From the NCBI RefSeq assembly GCF_009805705.1, contig NZ_VSMB01000001.1, positions 248,001 to 312,000 of the forward strand: DNA of 64,000 bases. The letters run 5' to 3'. The translations under genes were made by a program, and so were the position numbers. This DNA is from Ruania rhizosphaerae. Its GTDB lineage: Bacteria; Actinomycetota; Actinomycetes; Actinomycetales; Beutenbergiaceae. Numbering within the stretch: position 1 is the first letter of the stretch; every line of letters begins with the position of its first letter. Of this stretch, positions 6,124 through 37,230 are shown piece after piece. The notes below the pieces were generated by a model. It saw nothing but the letters and a program-made list of their open reading frames with translations, did no database searches and had not been told where the DNA came from.

Positions 6124-7581
6124 CTAGGACTGGGAGCACATCGTGATCAGCAGAGCAGCCGACTCGGCCGCGATCGCCCGGGCCAGCGACGGCGCGTCGT
6201 CGCCGTCTGGTTCCGGAACGATCCGGTGAACGGTGCCGATGGCGGCCAGGTCCACTGCTCGGATCTGCTGTCGGTCGGCCATGCTCTCGGCATGCGCAGT
6301 GTCACCGTGGACAATGACACTGGCTCCCTCGGGCGACAGCGGTGAGAGCCAGGCATGTTGAGCGGCCAGTACCCGTCGAGCAGGCAGCAGCGCCAGTGCG
6401 CCGCCGCCGCACCCTTGGCCGAGCAGGACGGCCAGGGTCGGGACCTGCATCCTTGCCATCCTCGCGATGCACCGGGCGATCTCCCCAGCCATCGCCCGCT
6501 CTTCCGCCGCGACGGAGAGTTCAGCGCCCGGGGTGTCAATCACGGTGACCAGGGGCAGGCGGAGCTCCTCTGCCAGGTTCATCGCGCGACGAGCCTCGCG
6601 GAGGGCGGCGGGTCCCATGGCGCGCTCGGGGCTCTGTCGGTCGCGGTCCTGGCCGACGAGGACACACGGTTGTCCGTCGAGGCGTGTCAGCGCCACGACA
6701 ATGGTGTCGTCGCGCTCGCCATCGTCGGTGCCACGCAGGCGCAACGTGTCGGTCGCGGCATGCCGCAGGAGGTCTCGTACGCCGGCTCGCCCGGGTCGGC
6801 GGGTGAGGTCGACCGAGTGCCAAGCCGTGTGAGTCGCGAGCGCGGTCGGATCTCGCCGAGGGGCGACCGGGGGGTCGGGGCGGTCCAGCAGCACCCGCAG
6901 AGCCCGGTCGATCAGCTCGCTGAGGTCCTCGACTGCTACGACGGCATCGATGACGCCCTTGGCAGCGAGGTTCTCGGCCTGCTGTACCCCGGGTGGGAAC
7001 GGCACGCCGTGGAGCGCCTCGAACACCTTGGGACCCAGGAAGCCGACCAGGGCGCCCGGCTCGGCGACGGTCACGTGTCCCAGGGATCCCCAGGACGCGT
7101 ACACCCCGCCGGTCGTGGGGTGCCCAAGGTGCACCAGATAGGGGAGCCCTGCGGCCCGATGCGCTCCGATGGCCCTGGAGATCTCGATCATCTCGACGAA
7201 GGCCGGCGTCCCTTCCTGCATGCGGGTCCCGCCCGAGGCGGTGGTGGCGAGCACGGGGAGCCGTTCTGCAGTCGCGCGGCGGACCGTCGCCGTGATCCGA
7301 CGTGCCGCGTCCCGCCCGATCGAGCCTGCAAGGAACTTGAACTCGTTCGCCACCACGGCGACGGGGCGACCGCGGACACGTCCTCGCCCTGTGATCACCG
7401 ACTCGTCCGTGCCAGACCTCTCCTGGGCCGCACGGAGCTCTTGCTGATAGGCATACTCGTACCCGCTGATGTCGATGGGTTGGTCCCAGGACTCCCAGGA
7501 CCGCTCGTCGAGGACGAGGTGGAGCAGATCTTCTGCTCCCCGACGCTGCTGTGTAGGCGTGCTGCTGACCGCAGTAGTCAC
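6124..7581 (-). CDS. Acyl-CoA/acetyl-CoA carboxylase carboxyltransferase, fused beta and alpha halves
   Basis: Transfers a carboxyl group from carboxybiotin to an acyl-CoA. The 485-aa protein has an AccD-like first half (ASGGTRMQEG and PTTGGVYASWGSLGHV around residues 110-170) and an AccA-like second half (TVIDTPGAELSVAAEERAMAGEIARC, then GQGCGGGALALLPARRV near residue 400). It is compact for a fusion, and the four-Cys zinc ribbon that opens bacterial AccD is absent. GTG at 7581 overlaps the CoA-transferase stop (GTGA) and has GAGGAGG upstream; ATG at 7602 is the alternative. No biotin carrier or carboxylase gene lies nearby, so it must borrow partners. The acyl substrate is unknown. Confidence 0.82.
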   Translation of the reverse strand: MTTAVSSTPTQQRRGAEDLLHLVLDERSWESWDQPIDISGYEYAYQQELRAAQERSGTDESVITGRGRVRGRPVAVVANEFKFLAGSIGRDAARRITATVRRATAERLPVLATTASGGTRMQEGTPAFVEMIEISRAIGAHRAAGLPYLVHLGHPTTGGVYASWGSLGHVTVAEPGALVGFLGPKVFEALHGVPFPPGVQQAENLAAKGVIDAVVAVEDLSELIDRALRVLLDRPDPPVAPRRDPTALATHTAWHSVDLTRRPGRAGVRDLLRHAATDTLRLRGTDDGERDDTIVVALTRLDGQPCVLVGQDRDRQSPERAMGPAALREARRAMNLAEELRLPLVTVIDTPGAELSVAAEERAMAGEIARCIARMARMQVPTLAVLLGQGCGGGALALLPARRVLAAQHAWLSPLSPEGASVIVHGDTAHAESMADRQQIRAVDLAAIGTVHRIVPEPDGDDAPSLARAIAAESAALLITMCSQS

Positions 7582-8747
7582 CTCGCCTCCTCGCTCAGCC
7601 ACATCCGCAGCGACTCGCCGTGCTGATCCAGCCGTGGTGGTGCGGTGTGGCCGGAAGGAGTCGACTCGTGACCGGAGGGGTCGAAGAAGCGCAACGGAGG
7701 GCCCGGCAGCGTCAGATGTCCGAGGGAGGCGTGCTCGACGTCGATCAGGAGTCCTTGACTCCGGGTCTGGTCCCAGGTGTAGACCTCGTCGAGGCCCCGG
7801 ATCCTGCCGGCAGGGACGCCGAGGTCTGCGAGTCGCGCGAGCAGGGGCGCCGCATCCCAGCCCGCGAAGGCAGCCTCGACAACCTCGATCATGCGTTCAC
7901 GGGAATTGACGCGCTCGGTGTTGGTCGAGAGCCCTGAGGGATCGATGGCAAATCCGTCGCAGAGGCGTCGCCACAGGCTCTCGCTGCCGACAGCGATCTG
8001 CACCGCCCCGTCGTGACAGCGGAACAGCCCATAGGGCGCTATCGACGGGTGGTGGTTTCCCTGGGCGCGGCCGATCTCGCCGGCCACGGTCCATCGGGTT
8101 CCCTGGAAGGCGTGAACTCCCACGAGCGCTGCCAGCAGGGAGGTGCGCACCACTTGTCCCTCGCCAGTCACCGATCGCTCGTGCAGCGCCGCGAGCACAC
8201 CGTACGCGCCGTAGATGCCGGCGAGCAGGTCCCCGATCGGCACGCCGACGCGCTCGGGGTCGTCGGGGCCGGAACCGGTCAGCGACATGAGCCCGGCCTC
8301 CCCTTGAGCTATCTGGTCGTATCCTGGACGCCCACCTTCGGGACCGTCGTGACCGAAGCCCGTGATGGAGAGGGCCACGAGTTGGGGATTGCGCTTCATG
8401 AGCAGGTCGATTCCGAGCCCGAGCCGTTCCAGGACTCCCGTGCGGAAGTTCTCCACGAGGACGTCGGCGCGGTCGATGAGTCGCAGCAGGATCTCGCGGT
8501 CGGAGTCTGCTTTGAGATCGAGGACGAGGGACTCCTTGTTGCGGTTGGCCGACAGGAAGTACGTCGACTGAGGATCGTGGTCGGGCCCGGCGAACGGCGG
8601 CCCCCATCCGCGGGTGTCGTCACCGCGGTCGGGCGCCTCGACCTTGACGACGCGAGCGCCCAGGTCACCAAGCATCATCGTGGCGTGCGGTCCGGCAAGC
8701 GCTCGCGACAGGTCAACGACCAGGACACCGCTCAGCGGACCCCTCAC
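7578..8747 (-). CDS. CaiB/BaiF family III CoA-transferase
   Basis: Moves CoA between carboxylic acids in the cytosol. The 389-aa protein opens with the family pattern LSGVLVVDLSRALAGPHATMMLGDLGARVVKVE. It has the NRNKESLVLDLK segment with ADVLVENFRTGVLERLG, and SITGFGHDGPEGGRPGYDQIAQGEAGLM carrying the catalytic-Asp region near residue 160. The GTG start at 8747 overlaps the stop of the 85-aa ORF (GTGA), and its own stop overlaps the carboxyltransferase start, so three ORFs form a tightly coupled unit. A CoA-transferase next to a carboxyltransferase suggests activation and carboxylation or decarboxylation of one acid (inference). Confidence 0.9.
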   Translation of the reverse strand: MRGPLSGVLVVDLSRALAGPHATMMLGDLGARVVKVEAPDRGDDTRGWGPPFAGPDHDPQSTYFLSANRNKESLVLDLKADSDREILLRLIDRADVLVENFRTGVLERLGLGIDLLMKRNPQLVALSITGFGHDGPEGGRPGYDQIAQGEAGLMSLTGSGPDDPERVGVPIGDLLAGIYGAYGVLAALHERSVTGEGQVVRTSLLAALVGVHAFQGTRWTVAGEIGRAQGNHHPSIAPYGLFRCHDGAVQIAVGSESLWRRLCDGFAIDPSGLSTNTERVNSRERMIEVVEAAFAGWDAAPLLARLADLGVPAGRIRGLDEVYTWDQTRSQGLLIDVEHASLGHLTLPGPPLRFFDPSGHESTPSGHTAPPRLDQHGESLRMWLSEEAR

Positions 8748-27160: not shown

Positions 27161-28816
27161 TCACTGCGTCGCGTCCCAGGCTTCCTGGTAGATCTCGACG
27201 TAGCGATCGCTCCCGTTGGCGACGAGGGCGTCCTGGAACGCCTGCCAGTCGTCGTCGGAGTCGATGTCACGCACCCCGGTGACGAACTCGGCACTCGCCT
27301 GCAGCACCAGGGACTCCACATTGGTCTGCACGGTGGAGAGCTCGCTCGCCTCCTCCTCGGGGATCCACAGGTTCCAGTACGGGAAGGCCTCCGCTGGGCT
27401 GTTCTCCGCGTAGGGCTGCGTGGCCTCGAACAGACGTCGCTCATAGCCGGAGAGGTCGTAGACGTCCTCGGGGACGACCTGCGACTGACGGAACTCCTGG
27501 CTGCCGTAGTACTGCGCCAGCGGGCCCCAGGCGGCATTGGTGTTCTCACTGGCCTCCGCGCCACTGAGGCGGTGACGCACATACAGCGGCTCGAGCTCCT
27601 CGTTCAGGGCCACGTCACCGTCCTGGGCGTAGTCCCAGGCGACACCCTCCTCACCCCACTCGGCGCGCAGGTGGTTGTCGTAGTCAATCATCCAGTCGAC
27701 GATCTGGACGAGCGTGGCCGCTTCCTCGTCGGTGGCGTTGTTCGTGACGACGAAGGTCGCACCCGCCGGGGAGGAACTGATCTGCGACGCGGGTGAGCCG
27801 TTCGGCCCGGTCAGCGGGGGCAGGGCGTCATAGTTGGCGTCACGGCCGTCCTCCTGACCGATGGTGACGAAGACGCCCGGGTGACCGACCGTCGCAGCAC
27901 CGAGGATCGGATCACCAGCGACGTCACCGAGGGCAAGCAGCGCATCCTGGTTCTGCGTGAAGGCGGCCTCATCGATCAGACCCTCCTCGAACAGAGAGTT
28001 CACGTAGGTCAGGCCCTCGCGCCAGCCGTCCAGAGTCGGCTGCAGCGTCACCTCCTCGCCCTGGAGCGCCAATGAGCCCGGGGCGGATCCGCTCGTACTG
28101 GAGGCCGCCATGTACACGAATGGGTTCATCAGGAACGGCAGCACCGAGTTCGCGCCCGGTGAACCGGACAGAGGAACCTCGTCGGCCTCACCGTTGCCGT
28201 TCGGGTCCTGCTCCTTGAACGCGGCCAACACCTCCCGCAGCTCCTCGGGCGTGGTCGGCTGCTCCATGCCGACGCTCTCCAGCCAGGCACTGTTCAGCCA
28301 GAGCTTGGAGGGATAGGTGCAGTGGAAGCAGTCGTTCCACTGGGGAAGCCCCCAGACGTTACCGTCGGGTGCGGTGGACAGAGCCTCCCACTCGGGGGTG
28401 TCGGCCCAGGCGGCTTGCAGGTTCGGCGCGTTCTCGTCGAGCAGATCGTTCAGCGGCCGGATCAGGCCCTGATCACCGAACTTGACGAGCTCGGCCTGGG
28501 TGAACTGATCCACCCACGGAATCAGCAGGAAGGCATCCGGGTAGTCACCGCTGGCCAGTGTGATCTGCCGGGACTCCGAGGCCGCAGCCGCGTCCCAGGT
28601 GGTGGTCTCGAACTGCAGGTCGACGCCGAACTCTTCCTCGATCAGCAACGTGAACGAGCTCGTGTTGAGGTCGCGATCGGGGCCCTGCTGGCTGTAGATG
28701 GTGATGACGCCGTCATCGGTGGGCTCCTCCTCGCCGCCCGGGGCGCAGGCGCTGATACCCAGCGCCAGGCCACCGGCGGCGAGAACGGCCGCGGCTCTGC
28801 GATACGTGCGTGTCAT
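27161..28816 (-). CDS. Carbohydrate ABC transporter substrate-binding lipoprotein (LipO/YtcQ type)
   Basis: A 551-aa extracytoplasmic lipoprotein: the signal peptide ends in a GISAC lipobox with Cys24. The long mature domain (over 520 aa) and patterns such as TTPEELREVLAAFKEQDPNGNGEADEVPL, QIVDWMIDYDN and NLWIPEEEAS are typical of the long oligosaccharide-binding proteins that pair with LplB/YtcP permeases. ATG at 28816 has GAGAGG upstream. It is the last gene of the permease-permease-SBP operon. The neighbouring catabolic operon and GH95 remnant suggest a deoxysugar-containing glycan as ligand (inference). Confidence 0.92.
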   Translation of the reverse strand: MTRTYRRAAAVLAAGGLALGISACAPGGEEEPTDDGVITIYSQQGPDRDLNTSSFTLLIEEEFGVDLQFETTTWDAAAASESRQITLASGDYPDAFLLIPWVDQFTQAELVKFGDQGLIRPLNDLLDENAPNLQAAWADTPEWEALSTAPDGNVWGLPQWNDCFHCTYPSKLWLNSAWLESVGMEQPTTPEELREVLAAFKEQDPNGNGEADEVPLSGSPGANSVLPFLMNPFVYMAASSTSGSAPGSLALQGEEVTLQPTLDGWREGLTYVNSLFEEGLIDEAAFTQNQDALLALGDVAGDPILGAATVGHPGVFVTIGQEDGRDANYDALPPLTGPNGSPASQISSSPAGATFVVTNNATDEEAATLVQIVDWMIDYDNHLRAEWGEEGVAWDYAQDGDVALNEELEPLYVRHRLSGAEASENTNAAWGPLAQYYGSQEFRQSQVVPEDVYDLSGYERRLFEATQPYAENSPAEAFPYWNLWIPEEEASELSTVQTNVESLVLQASAEFVTGVRDIDSDDDWQAFQDALVANGSDRYVEIYQEAWDATQ

Positions 28817-28885: not shown

Positions 28886-29812
28886 TCAGCCCTTGACGGC
28901 ACCCAGGAGCAGGCCCCGGGTGAAATAGCGGGCGACGAACGGATAGATGAGCATCATCGGGACGGTGGAGACCACGATGAGCGAGTACTTCAGCAGGCTT
29001 GCGAGTTGTTGTCGCTCGATCGCTGCGGTGACGTCCGCACCCGCGTCGGTGTTGAGGATGAGGATGTTGCGCAGCACCAGCTGGAGTGGGTAAAGACTGT
29101 CGTCGCGCAGGTAGATGAGAGCGTCGAAGTAGGAGTTCCACTGCACGATCGCGTACATCAGGGCGATCACGGCGAGCATCGGCGCCGAGAGCGGAAGTAC
29201 CACCCTCCACAGGATGCGCAGGTCACTGGCGCCGTCGATCTCACCTGCCTCACGCAACTCGTCCGGGATCGCGGTGCGGAAATAGGTGATGGCCAGGATC
29301 GCCGGCCACACCGCCACCGCCTTCGGAATGAGCAGGGCCCAGCGGGTGTCCAGCATGCCCATGCTCTGCACCACCAGATAGGTAGGGATCAGCCCGCCCG
29401 CGAACAGCATGGTGAACACGACCGCGCCGGTGAGGATTTTGCGCCCCACGAAGTCGGCCCGGGAGAGGGGGTAGGCGAGCATGACTGTCAATGTCACGCT
29501 GATCGCTGTACCGGCGACCGTATAGAACGCCGAGTTCGCGAAGCCGGTCAGGATCGTCGAGTTGGTGAAGACCACCTCGTACCCGCGCAACGTGAAGTCG
29601 ACCGGCCACAAGAACACCTCACCAGCCGAGACTGCCGCCGGGCTGGAGAAGGAACTGACCAGGATGTACCACAACGGCAGCAGCACCACGATCAGGAACG
29701 TCGTCAGCAGGATGTAGACACCGACGAGGAAGACGCGGTCGACCGGCGACTCCCGTACCCGCCGAGAGCGTCTGAAAGCTGTGCGGTTCGGCTTGGTCAG
29801 GACGGCGCTCAC
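28886..29812 (-). CDS. Carbohydrate ABC transporter permease (YtcP/LplC type)
   Basis: A 308-aa inner-membrane permease with six hydrophobic segments. The EAA loop near residue 200 reads REAGEIDGASDLRILWRVVLPLSAPM, and the C terminus KYSLIVVSTVPMMLIYPFVARYFTRGLLLGAVKG is typical of LplC-like subunits. The GTG start at 29812 overlaps the upstream permease stop (GTGA), giving translational coupling. It works with the preceding LplB-like subunit; no ATPase gene is present, so a shared MsiK-type ATPase probably energises the transporter, as is usual in actinobacteria. Confidence 0.92.
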   Translation of the reverse strand: MSAVLTKPNRTAFRRSRRVRESPVDRVFLVGVYILLTTFLIVVLLPLWYILVSSFSSPAAVSAGEVFLWPVDFTLRGYEVVFTNSTILTGFANSAFYTVAGTAISVTLTVMLAYPLSRADFVGRKILTGAVVFTMLFAGGLIPTYLVVQSMGMLDTRWALLIPKAVAVWPAILAITYFRTAIPDELREAGEIDGASDLRILWRVVLPLSAPMLAVIALMYAIVQWNSYFDALIYLRDDSLYPLQLVLRNILILNTDAGADVTAAIERQQLASLLKYSLIVVSTVPMMLIYPFVARYFTRGLLLGAVKG

Positions 29813-30816
29813 CACAGCCCCTTTCCTGTCACGCGCTTGGCGACGATGTTGACTGCGACCAGCAGGACGAGGTTGATGACGGAGTTGAACAACCCGATCG
29901 CGGTGGCCAGGCTGAAATCGGCGTTCTGGATGCCGATCTTGTAGGTGTAGGTGGCGATGATCTCCGACTGCGAGAGGTTCAGCGGGTTCTGCAGCAGGAA
30001 CGCCTTCTCGAAGCCGACCGCCATGATGGAGCCGACCGAGAGGATCAGCACGACCACGATGGTCGGAGTGATGCTCGGCAGGTCGACGTGCCAGATCTTC
30101 TGTAGCCGGTTCGCTCCGTCGACTTTCGCGGCCTCGTAGAGTCCCGGATCGACCCCGGCGAGGGCGGCGAGATAGATGACGGCGGAGTACCCGGCCGTCT
30201 GCCACACCTCGGACCAGACGTAGACATGCCGGAAGAAGTCCGGCTGGGCCAGGTAGTCGGTGGCCGGCAGACCGAAGAATCCGGTCAGGTCGCTTGCCAG
30301 GCCGATCCGCGGCGAGAGGATCAGGATCGCCATCGAGACCACGACCACCGTGGAGATGAAGTACGGCGCGTAGGTGACCATCTGCACGGTGCGCTTGAAG
30401 AACCTCGCCCGGATCTCGTTCAGCGCGAGTGCCAAGATGATCGGGATCGGGAAGCTGGCGATCAGCGCGTACAGGCTCAACAGGAAGGTGTTGCTCACCA
30501 CGGTGGTGAACATCGGGTTGGAGAAGAACCGCTCGAAGTACTCCAGTCCCGCCCAGGGCGATCCCCAGATACCTTCGACGACGTTGAAGTCCTTGAACGC
30601 GATGATCGCGTTCGCCATCGGCACGTACTGGAAGACCAGGAAGTACAGCAGCGGTGGGATGACGAGGAGATAGAGCTGCCAGTGCCGCCGGACGGACCTG
30701 CGCAGCCGCCCGCGGCGCTCACCAGAGCGACGGCGCGGTGAGGGCGGTGTGCCCAGGCCCCGCGTCGCGACCGGCGGCGGCGCCGTGCTGGCCGTGCCCA
30801 GACCGGTGTGCACCAC
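29809..30816 (-). CDS. Carbohydrate ABC transporter permease (LplB/YteP type)
   Basis: A 335-aa permease, first gene of the transporter operon. A basic N-terminal tail precedes the first helix (WQLYLLVIPPLLYFLVFQYVPM), as usual for LplB-like subunits, and the EAA loop is GLYEAAKVDGANRLQKIWHVDLPSITPT. I chose the GTG at 30816, which has GAGGAGCC upstream; a second GTG follows immediately, and an ATG at 30888 without a ribosome site is less likely. A candidate LacI operator lies about 90 bp upstream of the start. Confidence 0.92.
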   Translation of the reverse strand: MVHTGLGTASTAPPPVATRGLGTPPSPRRRSGERRGRLRRSVRRHWQLYLLVIPPLLYFLVFQYVPMANAIIAFKDFNVVEGIWGSPWAGLEYFERFFSNPMFTTVVSNTFLLSLYALIASFPIPIILALALNEIRARFFKRTVQMVTYAPYFISTVVVVSMAILILSPRIGLASDLTGFFGLPATDYLAQPDFFRHVYVWSEVWQTAGYSAVIYLAALAGVDPGLYEAAKVDGANRLQKIWHVDLPSITPTIVVVLILSVGSIMAVGFEKAFLLQNPLNLSQSEIIATYTYKIGIQNADFSLATAIGLFNSVINLVLLVAVNIVAKRVTGKGLW

Positions 30817-31056: not shown

Positions 31057-31068
31057 TCTGAGGTGACA

Positions 31069-31350
31069 GTGTCGTCCAGGTTCACGTTCGCGCAGCCGGC
31101 CGCTGAGACGGCAACGGATCCCCGCGTTCACGAGCTCTCATTCGCCAGCGCCGCGGCCGAGTGGGTGGAAGCGCTACCCATCGGCAACGGCAGGCTCGGG
31201 GCGACGGTGTTCGGCGGCGCAGCCCAGGAGCTTCGTTCCCACCATCACACCGCGCAGACGGTGACCGTGCGATACCGGTCGATCTCCCAGGAGATCGAGC
31301 TGCACCCGGGCCAGACGGTGCACCCGACCGCCGAGGAGACCCGCTCATGA
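31069..31350 (+). pseudogene. Remnant of GH95 alpha-L-fucosidase with in-frame internal deletion
   Basis: Only about 93 codons, yet both ends of a GH95 enzyme (normally 750-800 aa) can be read. The N-terminal part HELSFASAAAEWVEALPIGNGRLGATVFGG is the family's opening motif. It passes directly into TAQTVTVRYRSISQEIELHPGQTV, which looks like the last beta-strands of the family. The catalytic barrel is missing. The frame is kept and the TGA overlaps the CoA-transferase ATG (ATGA), so translation probably persists for coupling. An internal deletion is the simplest explanation. The GTG at 31063 could be an earlier start. Confidence 0.75.
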
Positions 31351-32552
31351 CCGCCGCATCCACCTCCATCGACCCGCTCGAGGGTTTCCTCGTGCTGGAC
31401 TTCAGCCAGTTCCTGGCCGGGCCGGTGGCCGCGCTACGGCTCGCCGACCTCGGCGCGCGGGTGATCAAAGTTGAGCGCCCCGGCATCGGGGACATCGGCC
31501 GCGGCCTCGCCTTCGCGGGAGCCCGCGCCGGAAACGACACGGTTTCCTTCCACGCGATGAACCGCGGCAAGGAGAGCCTGTCGGCGGACCTGAAGAACCC
31601 CGAGGACCTCGCGGTCGTCCGCCGACTCGTGGAGCGGGCCGACGTCGTCGTGGAGAACTTCCGCCCAGGAGTGATGGAACGGCTGGGCCTGGACTACGAG
31701 AGCGTCCGGGCCACCAACCCGGGCGTCGTCTACGGCTCGATCACCGGCTACGGGGAGGAGGGCCCCTGGCGGGACCGTCCCGGTCAGGACCTGCTCGCGC
31801 AGTCGATCGCCGGCCTGCCCTGGCTGCAGGCCGATCCCGAGCCGAGCCCCATGGGGATCGCGATCGCCGACCACCTCGCCTCCTGCCACCTGGCGCACGG
31901 GATCACGGCGCTGCTGCTACGGCGCGCGCGCACCGGCGTCGGGGGTCACGTGCGCACCTCGTTGCTGGAGGCGATGGTCGATCTGCAGTTCGAGATGCTC
32001 TCGGTGCGCCTGACCGAACCGGGTGCCCTCACGCAGCCCGTCCGCGGCCCCCACAGCGCCCACAGTTACCTGCCCGCCCCCTACGGGGTCTACCCGACGG
32101 CGGACGGTTACCTCTCCATCGCGATGAACCCGGTGCCTCGCATCGGCGAGCTGCTCCAGCTCCCGGAGCTGGTGGAGATGACCGACCCGCAGACCTGGTG
32201 GGAGCAGCGCTCCCACATCGAGATTCTCATCGCGGACCGGCTGCGCACCGGCACCACCGAGACGTGGCTGGCGATCCTGGATGAGGCCGACGTCTGGTGC
32301 GCTCCGCTGCACACTGTGGACGAGCTGGTCGAGCACGAGGGCTTCCGACAGATCGACATGGTCCAGACCCTCGACCGTGCCGAGCCGGACGGCTCGCGTA
32401 CCGAGGTGACGACCACCCGGATGCCGCTGCGGATCGACGGCGTGCGCCCCCGCTCGGCGTCCGCCGCACCCTCTCTCGGGGCCGACAGCGAGCGTCTGCG
32501 GGACGAGGTCGCCCCCTGTGTCACCGAGCGGATCGCGGAGCAGGCGTCATGA
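31347..32552 (+). CDS. CaiB/BaiF family III CoA-transferase
   Basis: A 401-aa cytosolic CoA-transferase. It opens with PLEGFLVLDFSQFLAGPVAALRLADLGARVIKVERPG. MNRGKESLSADLK, ADVVVENFRPGVMERLGLDYE and GSITGYGEEGPWRDRPGQDLLAQSIAGL follow, with the catalytic Asp expected in RPGQD near residue 150. It is distinct from the paralogue at 7578-8747. It sits in a coupled operon with a MaoC-type protein, lactonase and oxidoreductase, suggesting that a sugar-derived acid is handled as a CoA thioester. The natural substrate is unknown. Confidence 0.9.
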   Translation: MTAASTSIDPLEGFLVLDFSQFLAGPVAALRLADLGARVIKVERPGIGDIGRGLAFAGARAGNDTVSFHAMNRGKESLSADLKNPEDLAVVRRLVERADVVVENFRPGVMERLGLDYESVRATNPGVVYGSITGYGEEGPWRDRPGQDLLAQSIAGLPWLQADPEPSPMGIAIADHLASCHLAHGITALLLRRARTGVGGHVRTSLLEAMVDLQFEMLSVRLTEPGALTQPVRGPHSAHSYLPAPYGVYPTADGYLSIAMNPVPRIGELLQLPELVEMTDPQTWWEQRSHIEILIADRLRTGTTETWLAILDEADVWCAPLHTVDELVEHEGFRQIDMVQTLDRAEPDGSRTEVTTTRMPLRIDGVRPRSASAAPSLGADSERLRDEVAPCVTERIAEQAS

Positions 32553-33682
32553 CGCTCACGCTGCGCGGGATGACCTGGGACCACGAGCGCGGGTTCGACA
32601 GCATCGCCACCGCTTCGTCGGCGTACCGTTCCCGGGCTTACGCCGAGACCGGGACCGAGGTGGAGATCGTCTGGGAGCGCCGCTCGCTGCAGGCGTTCGC
32701 CGACCAAGGCCTGGAGTCCATGGCGGCAGAGTTCGACCTGCTCGTCATCGACCACCCGCATATCCCGCACGCTGCCCATGCCGGGCTGCTCGCACCGCTT
32801 CCCGACGGCGAGGGGCCGGCCGCCTTCGTCGGCCGCAGTTTCCAGACCTACCGGTGGCAGGGCACTCAGTACGGCGTGGCCATCGACGCTGCAGCCCAGG
32901 TGGCGGCCTACCGGCCGGACCTGTTTCCTGAGCCACCACGCACCTGGCCGGACGTGCTGGAACTGGCGAGGGACGCCGTCGTGCTCTGGCCGTGCAAACC
33001 CATCGATGCGTTCGCCTCGACCTTCACCCTCACCTCAGCCCTACAGGGAGAGGACGCCGGACGGCGCGGCCGCTTCGGTGCCCCGGATGCCTTCGCCGAG
33101 GCGTGGGAGACGGTGGGGCGGCTGCGCGACCTCGTCCCCGAGGAGTGTCTGACCGAGAACCCGATCGAGGTCTCCGAGCGGCTCGCCGGCAGCGACCGGT
33201 GGTGCTACGCCCCGCTGCTGTACGGCTACAGCAACTACGCCCGGCCGGGCTTCCGCGACCACCGGCTGGCCTGGACCGACATTCCGCAGACCGGTGGCGA
33301 GCCGCGCGGTTCGATGCTCGGTGGTGCCGGGTTGTCGGTCTCGGCGCACAGCGACCATCGGGCCGAGGCGGTGGCCTTCGCCACCTGGGCCGGCACCGGA
33401 GACGTGCAGCGCGGGGTCTACGCCCTCGCCGGCGGTCAACCCGGGCACGTGGCCGCCTGGGAGGACCGGCAGCTGGACGAACTCACTGCCGGATTCTTCG
33501 CCGGTACCCGCCGCACGCTGGAGCTGGCGAGCCTGCGCCCCCAGCACCCCCGGTACATGGACGTGCAGAACGCAGCATGCGCGCGGGTGCACCGGGCGCT
33601 GGTGCAGCGGGAGGGGGCCACCGGCCTGCTGGCGGATCTGGACCAGATGTTCGCAACGTTGGGGAGACCAGCATGCAGGTGA
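32549..33682 (+). CDS. Solute-binding-protein-like protein without signal peptide
   Basis: A 377-aa protein with the fold pattern of ABC extracellular solute-binding proteins (LRGMTWDHERGFDSI, AEFDLLVIDHPH, YGVAIDAAAQVAAYRPDLFP, ARGFD-like GGAGLSVSAHSDHRAEAVAFATWAGT). It starts directly with the mature fold: no signal peptide, no lipobox, no upstream in-frame alternative, and the ATG overlaps the CoA-transferase stop (ATGA). It is therefore predicted to be cytosolic. Inside this operon it may bind the pathway substrate or have become an enzyme or sensor; no family function is known to me. Confidence 0.7.
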   Translation: MTLTLRGMTWDHERGFDSIATASSAYRSRAYAETGTEVEIVWERRSLQAFADQGLESMAAEFDLLVIDHPHIPHAAHAGLLAPLPDGEGPAAFVGRSFQTYRWQGTQYGVAIDAAAQVAAYRPDLFPEPPRTWPDVLELARDAVVLWPCKPIDAFASTFTLTSALQGEDAGRRGRFGAPDAFAEAWETVGRLRDLVPEECLTENPIEVSERLAGSDRWCYAPLLYGYSNYARPGFRDHRLAWTDIPQTGGEPRGSMLGGAGLSVSAHSDHRAEAVAFATWAGTGDVQRGVYALAGGQPGHVAAWEDRQLDELTAGFFAGTRRTLELASLRPQHPRYMDVQNAACARVHRALVQREGATGLLADLDQMFATLGRPACR

Positions 33683-34131
33683 TTGACAGGTACTTCGAGG
33701 ACTTCGCCGTCGGTGAAGTGCGCCGCACGCTCGGACGCACGGTCACCGAGGCGGACGTGGTCCTACACGCCGGCCAGTCCGGCGACTTCTTCCCGCACCA
33801 CATGGACGAACGCTGGTGCGTGGAGGAGGCGGGCCTGGGCGGGCGTATCGCGCACGGCACGCTGATCATCACGATCGCCGTCGGGATGACCGCCGGGGAC
33901 GTGAACCCGCAGGCGATGAGCTACGGCTACGACCGGATCCGGTTCATCACGCCGGTGCTGATCGGCGACACGATCACCGTCACCGCGGAGATCACTGAGG
34001 TCACCGATCATCCGCGCCGCCCGGAGCTGGGCCGGGTGGATGAACTGGTCACGGTGACCAACCAGCGGGGCGATACGGTGCTGTCGTTGGTGCACCTGTA
34101 CGTCGTGACGAAGCGAGGCTCTGAGCAGTGA
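33673..34131 (+). CDS. MaoC-family dehydratase (hot-dog fold)
   Basis: A 152-aa protein of the R-specific enoyl-CoA hydratase type. The hydratase motif is present in modified form: SGDFFPHHMDE, where the family usually has GDxNPLH, so the catalytic Asp and His are kept but Asn is replaced. HGTLIITIAVGM and FITPVLIGDTITVTAEI complete the hot-dog pattern. It overlaps the previous gene by 10 bp and the next by 4 bp. With the CoA-transferase it would add or remove water on a CoA-bound acid. Confidence 0.88.
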   Translation: MQVIDRYFEDFAVGEVRRTLGRTVTEADVVLHAGQSGDFFPHHMDERWCVEEAGLGGRIAHGTLIITIAVGMTAGDVNPQAMSYGYDRIRFITPVLIGDTITVTAEITEVTDHPRRPELGRVDELVTVTNQRGDTVLSLVHLYVVTKRGSEQ

Positions 34132-34955
34132 TCGACGCTCATCTGCATGTGTGGGACCACGCCCGGTCCGGCTACGGCTGGCTGAACCACGCGCCGGAGC
34201 TGCTGCGGCGCGACCACCTTCCGTCCGAGGCACTGGACATGCTGGCCGAGCACGGGTTCACACGTGCGGTGCTCGTCCAGGCGGACGAGACCCTGACCGA
34301 GACGGAGTACCTGCTCGAACTGGTGGCCACGGAGCCGAGGATCGCCGGGGCGGTGGTCTACCTGCCGCTGGAGAACCCGGACACGGTGGCCGAGCACCTG
34401 GAGAACCGGCCGGCGGGAATGGTCGGGGCGCGCAACCTCACCCACGATCGCACCGATCCGGACTGGATCCTGGGGGCAGAGCAGCGCCGCAGTATCGAGC
34501 TGATCGGTGCCGCTGGGTTGCCGTTGGATGTGGTGGCGACGCTCCCGCGCCACCGGGAGAATCTCCTCACCCTTGCGCGACAGCACCCCGGCCAGACGTT
34601 CGTGCTGGATCACCTGGGCACCCCGGCGCTGGACGGGGGCGATGCTGCCGCCCTGTGGCGAGAGCAGCTGGGCGAGATCGCGAGCTGCCCGAACACGGTG
34701 GCGAAGGTGTCGGGCATCTACGCCTCAGGTGGTCCGGTGAGCGCGGACCAGATGCGCGCGGTGCTCGGCACCGCCCTGGAGCTGTTCGGGCCGGACCGGC
34801 TGATGGTGGGCACCGACTGGCCGGTGTGCACGGCCTTCGGCGGCGCCGGGGCGACGATGGGTGTGCTGCTGGGCGCAGTCGGCGAGTTGGAGCCCGCCCA
34901 GCAGGCGGCCGTGCGCACTGGCACGGCGGCTCGCGTCTACGGGTTGGCGATGTGA
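34128..34955 (+). CDS. Amidohydrolase_2 family lactonase-like protein
   Basis: A 275-aa TIM-barrel metal hydrolase. The N terminus MIDAHLHVWDHA is the metal-binding motif typical of L-fucono- and L-rhamnono-lactonases; VLDHLGTPAL and LMVGTDWPVCT supply the later His and Asp. GTG start at 34128 overlaps the MaoC stop, and its stop overlaps the next GTG. In this operon it probably opens an aldonolactone produced by the Gfo/Idh dehydrogenase next to it, as in fucose or rhamnose oxidation. The exact sugar is inferred only from the context. Confidence 0.85.
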   Translation: MIDAHLHVWDHARSGYGWLNHAPELLRRDHLPSEALDMLAEHGFTRAVLVQADETLTETEYLLELVATEPRIAGAVVYLPLENPDTVAEHLENRPAGMVGARNLTHDRTDPDWILGAEQRRSIELIGAAGLPLDVVATLPRHRENLLTLARQHPGQTFVLDHLGTPALDGGDAAALWREQLGEIASCPNTVAKVSGIYASGGPVSADQMRAVLGTALELFGPDRLMVGTDWPVCTAFGGAGATMGVLLGAVGELEPAQQAAVRTGTAARVYGLAM

Positions 34956-36082
34956 GTACTGCCTTCGACGGAGCCGGGCTCGAACGCCTCCGCGAACGCC
35001 ACCCGGATCCGGCATATCTGGCTGCTGCGCCGGAGCGTCCACTGCCGATCGTGCTCGTCGGCGCGGGTGGGATCGCCCGGGACGCCCACCTACCCGCCTA
35101 CCGCAAGGCACAGATGCCGGTGGCCGCCGTCGTGGATCTTGATCGTGAACGTGCCCGGGCGCTGGCGACCGACTTCGATATCCCCGCCACCTACGAGCGC
35201 CTGGAGGACGCCGTCGCCGCGCACGGCCGCGACGTCGTCTACGACGTGGCCGTGATGCCGAACGCATTCGGGGACATCCTCGATTCGCTGCCCGACGGCG
35301 CAGCGGTGCAACTGCAGAAACCGCTCGGCTACACCTACGCCGAGGCGAAGGCGCTGGTCGATCTCTGCGAGCGCAAGCGGCTGCGCGCCGCCGTCAACAC
35401 CCAGCTGCGGTTCGCTCCGCACGTGACCGTGGCCCGCCGGTTGATCGCCGACGGTGCGATCGGTGAGCTGATCGATCTCGAGGTGCTCGTGCGGGTGGAG
35501 ACGCCGTGGGAGTTGTTCCCCAGCGTCTTCGGGCTTGAGCGCATGGAGATGCCGATGCACTCGGTGCACTACGTGGACCTGGTGCGCTCGTTCGTCGGCG
35601 ACCCCAGCGGGGTGAGCGCGCTGACCGTGGCGCACCCGCACAAGGAGCTGGCCAGCACCCGCACGAGCTATCTACTGCACTACGCCGACCGGCCGCTGCG
35701 CGTGACCATCAGCACCAACCACGACCATGCCTTCGGTCCCGCGCATCAGGAGGCGGCGGTGCTGTGGCACGGCACCGAGGGCGCGATCCGCACCGAGCTC
35801 GGGCTGCTGCTGGACTACCCGCGCGGTGGGCCCGACCTGCTGGAGATCACCGACGGCGAGGGCTGGCGGGAGATCGAGGTGGAGGGGTCGTGGTTCCCGG
35901 ATGCCTTCATCGGCTCGATGGGGGCGCTGCAGCGCTACGTGACCGGTGAATCGGGCACGCTACCGACGTCGGCGAGCGACGTGCTGCGCACGATGGCCGT
36001 GCTCGAGGCCGCGCACGAAGCGAACCGGGCCGGTGGGCACCCGCTGCCCGGCCCGCCGCTCGGCCCTCCAAGGGCCGAATAG
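34952..36082 (+). CDS. Gfo/Idh/MocA family oxidoreductase
   Basis: A 376-aa NAD(P)-dependent sugar dehydrogenase. An N-terminal extension of about 30 residues precedes the Rossmann motif IVLVGAGGIARDAHLPAYR (residues about 34-52). The usual catalytic EKP is QKP here (VQLQKPLGY near residue 115), and HSVHYVDLVRSFVGDP carries the substrate-side His/Asp. GTG at 34952 overlaps the lactonase stop. It is the last gene of the operon; an intergenic repeat with a hairpin overlaps its last codons and may terminate transcription. Confidence 0.88.
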   Translation: MSTAFDGAGLERLRERHPDPAYLAAAPERPLPIVLVGAGGIARDAHLPAYRKAQMPVAAVVDLDRERARALATDFDIPATYERLEDAVAAHGRDVVYDVAVMPNAFGDILDSLPDGAAVQLQKPLGYTYAEAKALVDLCERKRLRAAVNTQLRFAPHVTVARRLIADGAIGELIDLEVLVRVETPWELFPSVFGLERMEMPMHSVHYVDLVRSFVGDPSGVSALTVAHPHKELASTRTSYLLHYADRPLRVTISTNHDHAFGPAHQEAAVLWHGTEGAIRTELGLLLDYPRGGPDLLEITDGEGWREIEVEGSWFPDAFIGSMGALQRYVTGESGTLPTSASDVLRTMAVLEAAHEANRAGGHPLPGPPLGPPRAE

Positions 36083-36201: not shown

Positions 36202-37230
36202 TCACCCGCGGGGCGCCGCGGCCGTGGACGCCCGCCGCACCAGCTCGGGCGCCGGGTCGTCCACCACGCGACTGACCTGCCCGCCATCGCCACTGCCATC
36301 GCCGTCGCCATTGAGCAGCAGATCCACGGCCGTGGCGCCCAGCGCCGCCATCGGCAGCCGCACCGTCGTCAGCGCCGGGGAGCAGGTGATGGCCGGCCAG
36401 ATGTCGTGAATCGCCACCACCGAGAGTTCCTCGGGCACGCTGATACCCATCTGCGCCGCCTCAGTGAGCGCACCGATCCCGGCGTTGACGTTCCCGACCA
36501 CCAAAGCCGTCGGCCGGGGCTCACGCCCGAGCAGCAGCCGGACGGCGTCCAGCGCCGAGCGGTAGGTGTAGCCCAAGGTGGTCAGGTGTTCCCGGGGCAG
36601 GGTGAGCCCCGCCTCGCCGAGTTCGCGCTCCACGCCCTGTTGACGGCGGCTGCTGGTGTCGGAGGCCGGGACGCCGCCGACGTACCCGATGCTCCGGTGC
36701 CCCAGTTCGAGCAGGTGGCGGGTCGCGAGCGCCCCGGCGGCGACGTCGTCGAGGCCGATGGTGCGCACCCCATCGACCGGACCGGAGTTGATCATCACGG
36801 TGTGCTCGGGGTGGGTCAACGCCCGGGCGACCAGATCGGTGGGGGCGCTGTCGTCCTTCTGCAGCAGGACGCCGTCGACGAGCCGTTCGTTGAGTAGCCG
36901 GTTGAACCCCTCGCTCCCTGGCTGCATCCGCGGACTCGAGGCGAGGAGCACCGAGTAGGAGTGGTCCAGGGCCCGGGCCTCGACCCCGTTGACCAGGTCG
37001 GTGAAGGTGGCGTTGGTGACGTCGGGGACGACCAGGGCGAGCAGGTGCGAACGGGCTCGGCGCAGCGACCGGCCGGCCGAGTTCGGGGCGTAGCGCAACA
37101 GCCTCGCCGACTCCACAACCCGCTCACGCGTCTCGGGGCGGATGCGGATGGTGGGGTCGGAGTTGAGCACACGCGAGACCACCGAGACCGACACCCCGGC
37201 GTGGGCGGCCACATCGCGCAACGTCACCAT
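36202..37230 (-). CDS. LacI-family transcriptional regulator of the 27-36 kb cluster (predicted)
   Basis: A 342-aa regulator. The HTH and hinge are textbook (VTLRDVAAHAGVSVSVVSRVLN, residues 2-23; NSAGRSLRR hinge end), and the effector domain shows LALVVPDVTNATFTDLVNGVE, VDGVLLQKDDS and LSVVAIHDIWPAITCSPALTTVRLP. ATG at 37230 starts immediately before the HTH. It is convergent with the catabolic operon. Sites like RAATCGWTTS occur in its own promoter and at both promoters of the cluster, so it probably represses the transporter and the catabolic operon together. The C-terminal Asp/Gly-rich run (GDGDGSGDGG) is unusual. Confidence 0.88.
   Translation of the reverse strand: MVTLRDVAAHAGVSVSVVSRVLNSDPTIRIRPETRERVVESARLLRYAPNSAGRSLRRARSHLLALVVPDVTNATFTDLVNGVEARALDHSYSVLLASSPRMQPGSEGFNRLLNERLVDGVLLQKDDSAPTDLVARALTHPEHTVMINSGPVDGVRTIGLDDVAAGALATRHLLELGHRSIGYVGGVPASDTSSRRQQGVERELGEAGLTLPREHLTTLGYTYRSALDAVRLLLGREPRPTALVVGNVNAGIGALTEAAQMGISVPEELSVVAIHDIWPAITCSPALTTVRLPMAALGATAVDLLLNGDGDGSGDGGQVSRVVDDPAPELVRRASTAAAPRG

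Follow-up and report, generated by a model that had tools for sequence, protein, structure and literature searches.

The 64,000-nucleotide stretch of Ruania rhizosphaerae DNA analysed here, referred to below as the window, carries at 31347-36082 five genes that a previous sequence-only reading had proposed to form a coupled operon in which a sugar acid is processed as its CoA thioester. Five intact open reading frames (ORFs) are present on the + strand, each confirmed as a member of its expected Pfam family, and successive genes overlap by 4, 10, 4 and 4 bp in gene order, in agreement with the overlaps of 4-10 bp that had been described. The second gene encodes a protein with the fold of a MalE-like solute-binding protein (SBP) that lacks an export signal, and is called SBPx here; its neighbour upstream is a CoA-transferase, abbreviated CoAT.

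31347..32552, + strand: CoAT, class III CoA-transferase (CaiB/BaiF family), 401 aa, catalytic Asp175; Pfam CoA_transf_3, E 4.6e-94
32549..33682, + strand: SBPx, 377 aa, signal-less protein of the MalE-like solute-binding fold, with the motif TWDHxRG as residues 9-15; Pfam SBP_bac_1/8
33673..34131, + strand: MaoC-type (R)-specific enoyl-CoA hydratase, 152 aa, Asp38/His43; Pfam E 1.1e-19
34128..34955, + strand: Amidohydrolase_2 / COG3618-type sugar lactonase, 275 aa; Pfam E 2e-39
34952..36082, + strand: Gfo/Idh/MocA sugar dehydrogenase, 376 aa, GTG start; Pfam E 9.8e-11

The corresponding Pfam scores are 316 bits for CoA_transf_3 (cut-off 23.3), 50 and 47 for SBP_bac_1 and SBP_bac_8, 70.7 for MaoC_dehydratas, 137 for Amidohydro_2 and 43 for GFO_IDH_MocA. 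The nearest solved structure to the MaoC protein is 4ffu (E 6.5e-45), the lactonase matches structure 4dlf with an E value of 3.2e-31, and residues 35-359 of the Gfo/Idh protein align with structure 5uhw. None of the nine window proteins scanned reaches the cut-off of any named NCBIfam model. CoAT scores 185 bits against NF041294 (succinyl-CoA:mesaconate CoA-transferase, cut-off 700) and 54 bits against NF002914 (CaiB, cut-off 413), and the sole model listed for the lactonase, NF052480 (L-fucono-1,5-lactonase), gives 161.6 bits, below its equivalog cut-off of 400. Active-site residues are retained: Asp175 of CoAT aligns with D169 of E. coli Frc and is an aspartate in 99 of 99 rows, the catalytic Asp of MaoC is conserved in 75 of 76 rows and its His in 65, and each member of the Glu pair of the crotonases found in sister clusters is present in 14 of 15 rows, E. 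coli CaiD counted.

Recurrence of the gene set in other genomes, on which the sequence-only reading had staked its proposal, was found at short and long range, across eight phyla. Among 59 relatives of the source genome, ten encode an SBPx at 70-93% identity; in all ten loci it is accompanied by CoAT, MaoC, the lactonase and a GH95 glycosidase gene or its remnant, and in nine also by Gfo, a LacI-family regulator and an ABC importer, the tenth locus being a 5.3-kb contig. Seven relatives of the 59, six of which belong to these ten, have a second SBPx, 32-36% identical (split over two matches in G005). The four second-SBPx loci that were read (L026-L029) contain, with varying completeness, genes for GntR, an enolase-superfamily protein, a metallo-beta-lactamase fold, CoAT, SBPx, crotonase, an FAH-family protein, an aldehyde dehydrogenase and a GH28-type protein. 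As a control, weaker SBP matches in the relatives were examined together with about 1.5 kb of flank (L018-L025), and none of these eight conventional-SBP loci has CoAT, MaoC, lactonase or Gfo above 60 bits.

When 84,980 species genomes were scanned with a profile, at least 574 SBPx stretches were found. The counts given below rest on the 80 best-scoring loci, which, having been chosen in this way, lean towards the query; neighbours were labelled by tblastn matches to selected reference proteins rather than by full annotation, and the 58 loci longer than 19 kb are taken to have nearly full flanks. The 80 loci span Actinomycetota, Pseudomonadota, Planctomycetota, Bacillota, Chloroflexota, Bacteroidota, Acidobacteriota and Thermodesulfobacteriota. 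In a plasmid collection, 145 of 72,556 records contain SBPx matches, mainly from rhizobia. SBPx is rare among Actinomycetota, with three positives at E <= 1e-40, source genome counted, in a sample of 396 genomes in which at most four candidates per genome were scored and which may undercount; the other two positives (L148 and L149) are crotonase-type clusters. Chance clustering of the five genes was considered and rejected, because CoA_transf_3 genes number only four in the 4.4 Mb of the source genome and the arrangement recurs in eight phyla.

The most constant feature of these loci is the pairing of SBPx with CoAT. CoAT lies within 10 kb of SBPx in 72 of the 80 loci and within 300 bp in 61. 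A hydratase, either MaoC or crotonase, is found within 10 kb in 72, and CoAT and hydratase are both present in 69 (the core loci), or in 55 of the 58 loci with nearly full flanks. Where CoAT is immediately upstream, the two genes overlap by exactly 4 bp in 37 of 44 cases; the reversed order, SBPx directly followed by CoAT, occurs in 14 loci. Similarly, the pair is adjacent in 14 of the 15 annotated plasmid loci that were read and about 2.6 kb apart in the remaining one (L050). Phylogenetically, 92 of 99 CoA-transferase rows fall into one clade (support 99/95), to which the window CoAT belongs and to which every one of the 69 SBPx loci in the tree contributes a CoAT; 72 loci have a CoAT, and the partial sequences of L090, L122 and L133 were left out. 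Outside this clade are E. coli Frc, YfdE and CaiB, the three other CoA_transf_3 proteins of the source genome and an Frc-like extra copy from L100, all on long branches (that of CaiB very long), so that the tree calls for caution. Across the 25 loci that have all five genes, SBPx and CoAT distances correlate at 0.94, and their partial correlation of 0.645 is the highest of the ten operon pairs, the runner-up being MaoC-lactonase at 0.51, although such a correlation is unable to tell contact from common inheritance. The carriers found near the pair are varied, comprising CUT1 or CUT2 ABC importers, RhaT-type and MFS carriers and, as judged by eye, TRAP systems. Together these findings support the conclusion that SBPx is tied to a CoA-transferase and not to one type of transporter.

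Some variations on the pair were also seen. Three alphaproteobacterial loci (L100, L102 and L106) have two different SBPx in tandem behind CoAT and crotonase. In S. meliloti 1021 pSymB (L048, 9325-10451) the CoAT homologue is split over two frames and is annotated as intact in strain ml47; the split frame could mask the module in mutant screens of strain 1021. SBPx loci that have no CoAT in the stretch examined (L097, L105, L107, L111, L120, L121, L129 and L131) come mostly from Planctomycetota, Chloroflexota and alphaproteobacterial metagenome-assembled genomes. The window itself has a further class III CoA-transferase gene, at 7578-8747, whose product lies outside the SBPx-linked clade.

The SBPx start was taken to be the nearest start codon at least four residues ahead of the TWDH motif, and export signals were judged by eye. 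A start codon is present 4-12 residues before the W-x-H motif (TWDH and its variants) in all 83 SBPx of the 80 loci, the choice being backed in 37 loci by the 4-bp overlap with CoAT, and no hydrophobic leader follows it in any of the 83; in L103 an in-frame hydrophobic stretch precedes the chosen start. The window SBPx likewise has no visible export signal, as had been noted earlier, and no lipobox, and a role for SBPx as a secreted transporter subunit was rejected for want of such a signal. Structure prediction, which had been suggested for this signal-less protein, gave a confident AlphaFold2 model (pLDDT 96.3, pTM 0.93) with a complete two-lobed MalE-type fold. Its best matches are LpqY (Z 36.8, root-mean-square deviation (rmsd) 2.6, 360 aligned; Foldseek/VIA-align), MalE3, SmoF and TMBP, and over this set Z is 34-37, rmsd 2.5-3.2 and identity 12-19%.

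An alignment of 85 SBPx, from which two C-terminally longer sequences (L092 and L094) were dropped and to which three from relatives were added, has 29 invariant columns at identities down to 31% with the window protein. The motifs TWDHxRG and DHPH set SBPx apart from exported sugar SBPs. In a profile alignment the TMBP segment LGGW reads LGGA in SBPx, with alanine in place of tryptophan, and D113 of SBPx aligns with a cleft residue of TMBP, which we take to be a ligand contact in that protein. Given the full MalE fold, the LGGA change and the missing leader, we predict that SBPx is an intact binding protein whose pocket has been remodelled and that it stays in the cytosol.

Around the constant CoAT-SBPx pair the other enzyme families are exchanged. 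Oxidation may be represented by Gfo/Idh, SDR, AKR or ADH proteins, lactone opening by Amidohydro_2 or SMP-30 and hydration by MaoC or crotonase. For example, a Shinella cluster consists of SDR, SMP-30, SBPx, CoAT and crotonase, and clusters in Streptomyces and Pseudosulfitobacter of SDR, CoAT, SBPx, crotonase and FAH; no conventional aldonate dehydratase is annotated in the Streptomyces and Pseudosulfitobacter cluster stretches. This exchange of flanking families would fit a sequence in which an aldonic acid is formed, loaded with CoA and dehydrated. The CoAT subclade, moreover, matches the hydratase type. The CoAT clade splits into branches of 11 and 81 rows, and ten of the 11 rows in the small branch come from crotonase loci, the exception being Streptomyces ITFR-6, which has MaoC instead. 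Crotonase without MaoC is found in six of the 80 loci; five of these belong to the 11-row branch, and L124 is the sole one of the 81-row branch.

A second signal-less family, SBPy, was found in some of the SBPx loci. It has the N-terminal motif RIAxRxFxPFE and resembles SBPx less than it does exported sugar SBPs. The suggestion that Persicobacter has two CoAT-SBPx pairs was rejected on this basis: its locus reads SBPx-CoAT-CoAT-SBP, the last protein being SBPy, and one Croceibacterium binding protein is also SBPy. Strong SBPy matches (37-64% identity) occur in four of the 80 loci, L104, L115, L127 and L090, the last being the most distant at 37%, and no leader is present in the stretch read of any of these four. 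L104, L115, L127 and the Croceibacterium locus also have a second CoAT, all of one subclade. The SBPy genes are located as follows.

L049, 15436-16668: SBPy
L053, 3423-4610: SBPy
L104, 13381-14556: SBPy
L115, 2661-3842: SBPy
L127, 2379-3557: SBPy
L090, 2069-3130: SBPy

Thus two families of apparently cytosolic binding proteins, as far as can be read from their sequences, accompany these transferases; as the two look unrelated, binding proteins may have been recruited in this way more than once.

The surroundings of the operon comprise an importer, a regulator and the remains of a glycosidase gene.

29809..30816, - strand: ABC importer permease A, start inferred; Pfam BPD_transp_1, E 1.4e-13; in nine of the ten relatives' loci
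28886..29812, - strand: ABC importer permease B, start inferred; BPD_transp_1 at 25.6 bits, cut-off 26.4; in nine of the ten relatives' loci
27161..28816, - strand: lipoprotein substrate-binding protein of the ABC importer (an exported SBP), lipoprotein-type N-terminus read in the sequence; in nine of the ten relatives' loci
36202..37230, - strand: LacI-family regulator, convergent with the operon; Pfam LacI/Peripla_BP_3; in nine of the ten relatives' loci
31063..31350, + strand: GH95 glycosidase gene remnant, residues 1-57 and the last 39 of an 840-aa relative, fused in frame (tblastn with the GH95 of L034)

The sequence-only reading had the operon facing its own ABC importer, and this is what the divergent permease pair and lipoprotein SBP represent; no ATPase gene was seen beside them. 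The GH95 remnant, overlooked at that time, is a sixth element of the arrangement. It forms a 95-codon ORF with its start kept and a stop that overlaps the CoAT start by 4 bp. The L034 GH95 gene is matched over 76-101% of its length in nine of the ten relatives (L034 itself counted), and the relative L033 carries the same deletion remnant as the window. The window lactonase is 68-69% identical to those of the two relatives that are otherwise closest and 90% identical to that of a more distant relative (L033, L034 and L035), and seems to have been swapped by recombination.

From the gene set, active-site residues, predicted fold, missing export signal, conservation and co-variation we infer the following route. 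Gfo/Idh would oxidise the imported sugar to a lactone, which the lactonase would open to the aldonic acid. The CoA-transferase, together with cytosolic SBPx, would load CoA onto this acid, and MaoC would dehydrate the CoA ester at C2-C3 to give an enol or 2-keto-3-deoxy acyl-CoA. CoA would then be handed back from the product, as the putative donor, to the next acid molecule. The net result would be a CoA-cycling aldonate dehydratase resembling carnitine dehydratase (CaiB plus CaiD), with SBPx as the acid-binding partner, presumably in contact with the transferase. The sequence-only reading had ordered dehydrogenase, lactonase, CoA ester formation and MaoC in the same way; this order fits the genes, whose catalytic residues are intact, and its chemistry and substrate are retained as proposals. 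We consider it rather probable that a sugar acid is processed in a CoA-dependent manner. For dehydration with CoA cycling and SBPx as the acid-binding partner of CoAT, taken jointly, we put the chances at slightly below even. Both estimates are tempered by the evidence from the loci, the source genome and the MaoC rows that is weighed below.

For the window operon, L-fucose or a near relative with the L-galacto configuration is the most likely sugar, since GH95 is present in relatives, the nearest lactonase model is an L-fuconolactonase and the gene company in the loci points the same way. Among the 80 loci, fucose-pointing neighbours are mutarotase (23), FucD (24) and AKR (28); alpha-L-fucosidases are found in the Persicobacter and Croceibacterium loci, and on S. 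meliloti pSymB about 12 kb separate the CoAT-SBPx pair from a cluster in which an L-fuconate dehydratase is annotated. By the Cahn-Ingold-Prelog labels, L-fuconate is 3R, and D-xylonate, L-arabinonate and D-galactonate are 3S. These labels lead to the prediction that L-fuconate suits the R-specific MaoC and the 3S acids suit crotonase. A more general view, which we put forward tentatively and think somewhat less likely than its contrary, is that of a bipartite transferase, in which a class III CoA-transferase works with a cytosolic, substrate-capturing binding protein, aldonates are dehydrated as CoA thioesters, the type of hydratase reads the configuration at C3, and binding proteins were recruited more than once.

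Several observations weigh against the proposed route. We know of no precedent for a MaoC protein acting on a 2,3-dihydroxyacyl-CoA, and to our knowledge no sugar-CoA intermediate has been seen so far. The MaoC His is missing in 11 of 76 rows. SBPx occurs without CoAT in the stretch examined in eight of the 80 loci, three of which (L107, L111 and L131) have nearly full flanks; there is no CoAT-SBPx gene fusion in the 80 loci to prove contact, and the distance correlation has the ambiguity mentioned above. In addition, a conventional dehydratase family (FucD, other enolase-superfamily or UxaA) is encoded within 10 kb in 38 of the 69 core loci, and therefore the CoA module may act otherwise there. 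In favour of the route, FucD, enolase, UxaA and IlvD gave no match within 10 kb in the remaining 31 core loci, and IlvD is found in none of the 80 loci. The five genes of the window operon include no L-fuconate dehydratase; FucD, SDR and FAH are all missing. The idea that the source genome as a whole is without a conventional dehydratase was nonetheless not upheld, for FucD and FAH are encoded on another contig.

L143, 8007-11958 (contig C38 of the source genome, G000): conventional fuconate operon FucD-FAH-SDR-AKR, FucD homologue 57%

This operon adds to the evidence against the route. No lactonase was recognised beside it, and hence the window lactonase might serve that pathway. The earlier claim that a CoA route takes the place of the usual dehydratase has evidence on both sides: it is consistent with the 31 core loci that have no conventional gene nearby, and is at odds with the 38 that do and with the genome's own fuconate-dehydratase operon.

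The alternatives that we considered each concern one part of the model or another, and more than one of them could hold. It is possible, but in our view unlikely, that the CoA module acts later than proposed or on a side product (a 2-keto-3-deoxy acid, a methylated or sulfated fuconate or a C3 product) beside the conventional route. The dehydratase genes in 38 of the core loci, the separate FucD operon of the source genome and the RraA-like or FAH genes in 32 of the 80 loci would all agree with this; the 31 core loci with no such dehydratase nearby, and minimal SDR-CoAT-SBPx-ECH-FAH clusters that have no gene for one, would not. That SBPx is itself a cytosolic catalyst, acting as a dehydratase, epimerase or thioesterase of a sugar-acyl-CoA, appears improbable. 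Enzymes with the type II periplasmic binding protein (PBP-II) fold do exist, MqnA and porphobilinogen deaminase being examples, and several of the 29 invariant columns are charged (among H12, R14, D63, D68, H69, D113 and R330), and the Trp of the TMBP LGGW segment is Ala in SBPx. However, the model is a complete MalE-type fold that matches sugar carriers closely overall (Z 34-37), its invariant loops coincide in the alignment with the ligand-binding segments of SBPs, and 72 of the 80 loci already encode a hydratase.

We give still less weight to a non-catalytic role in which SBPx senses or buffers the sugar acid in the cytosol and so controls CoAT or a regulator. The intact two-lobed binding fold would be suited to this, and LacI, IclR or GntR regulators, of different families, are among the locus companions, but it is CoAT, not any regulator family, that is the constant partner, coupled to SBPx by 4 bp in 37 of the 44 upstream loci and adjacent to it in both gene orders. 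Finally, SBPx has the sequence and fold of an ABC sugar-binding protein and could in principle be what is left of a transporter subunit after loss of its signal, hitch-hiking with the operon. With at least 574 stretches, 29 invariant columns, 83 of 83 proteins without a signal and a distribution beside CUT1, CUT2, MFS and RhaT-type carriers and TRAP (by eye), we regard this as highly improbable. Partnership of a cytosolic SBPx with the transferase is the reading that we favour.

If this reading is correct, bacteria of at least eight phyla, nodule symbionts among them, break down sugar acids via CoA esters, and a chemistry known for carnitine and phenyllactate, and not found for sugars in the literature searched, would extend to them. 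A binding protein would have been recruited as a cytosolic enzyme partner, and a function could be given to a large family for which the plasmid records read offer no annotation beyond solute- or substrate-binding protein, with such transporter annotations being corrected. The stereochemistry of the sugar acid would become predictable from the hydratase type, that is, from gene content alone. We know of no precedent for a cytosolic binding protein as partner of a transferase plus hydratase. In a search of open-licence full text, with hits judged by title and start of abstract and surveyed in part, no pairing of a CoA-transferase with a solute-binding protein and no CoA esters of aldonic acids were found, and the available portions of PMC11378808, PMC9007349 and PMC12911387 do not mention the module.

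The principle of a transferase working with a hydratase has precedents in known systems. E. coli CaiB and CaiD are, like CoAT and MaoC, a gene pair of class III CoA-transferase and hydratase, and according to the part of the source available a beta-hydroxy acid is there dehydrated as its CoA ester, with CaiD requiring CaiB so that CoA can cycle between product and substrate (PMC2131755). Unlike this pair, the proposed substrate here is a polyhydroxy sugar acid, the hydratase is MaoC in the window and crotonase in sister clusters, the window CoAT is outside the CaiB branch and SBPx has no counterpart. The methylaspartate cycle has the same succession of a class III transferase (succinyl-CoA:mesaconate CoA-transferase) and a MaoC-family hydratase (mesaconyl-CoA hydratase), as described for Haloarcula, and the same text, as far as accessible, has phenyllactate CoA-transferase in a complex with phenyllactyl-CoA hydratase; the substrate of the methylaspartate-cycle pair is a dicarboxylate, and the accessible part mentions no binding-protein partner (PMC5592240). 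With the non-phosphorylating L-fucose pathway (dehydrogenase, lactonase, FucD, SDR, FAH) the window operon shares the dehydrogenase and the COG3618 lactonase, and differs in having CoAT, SBPx and MaoC in place of FucD, SDR and FAH. SBPx in turn has the same complete fold as the ABC sugar-binding proteins LpqY, SmoF, TMBP and MalE, but differs from them in having no signal peptide or lipobox and in having a CoA-transferase as its genetic partner. Thus the transferase-plus-hydratase principle would be the known part of the system, and the cytosolic binding-protein partner and the sugar-acid substrates would be the new part.

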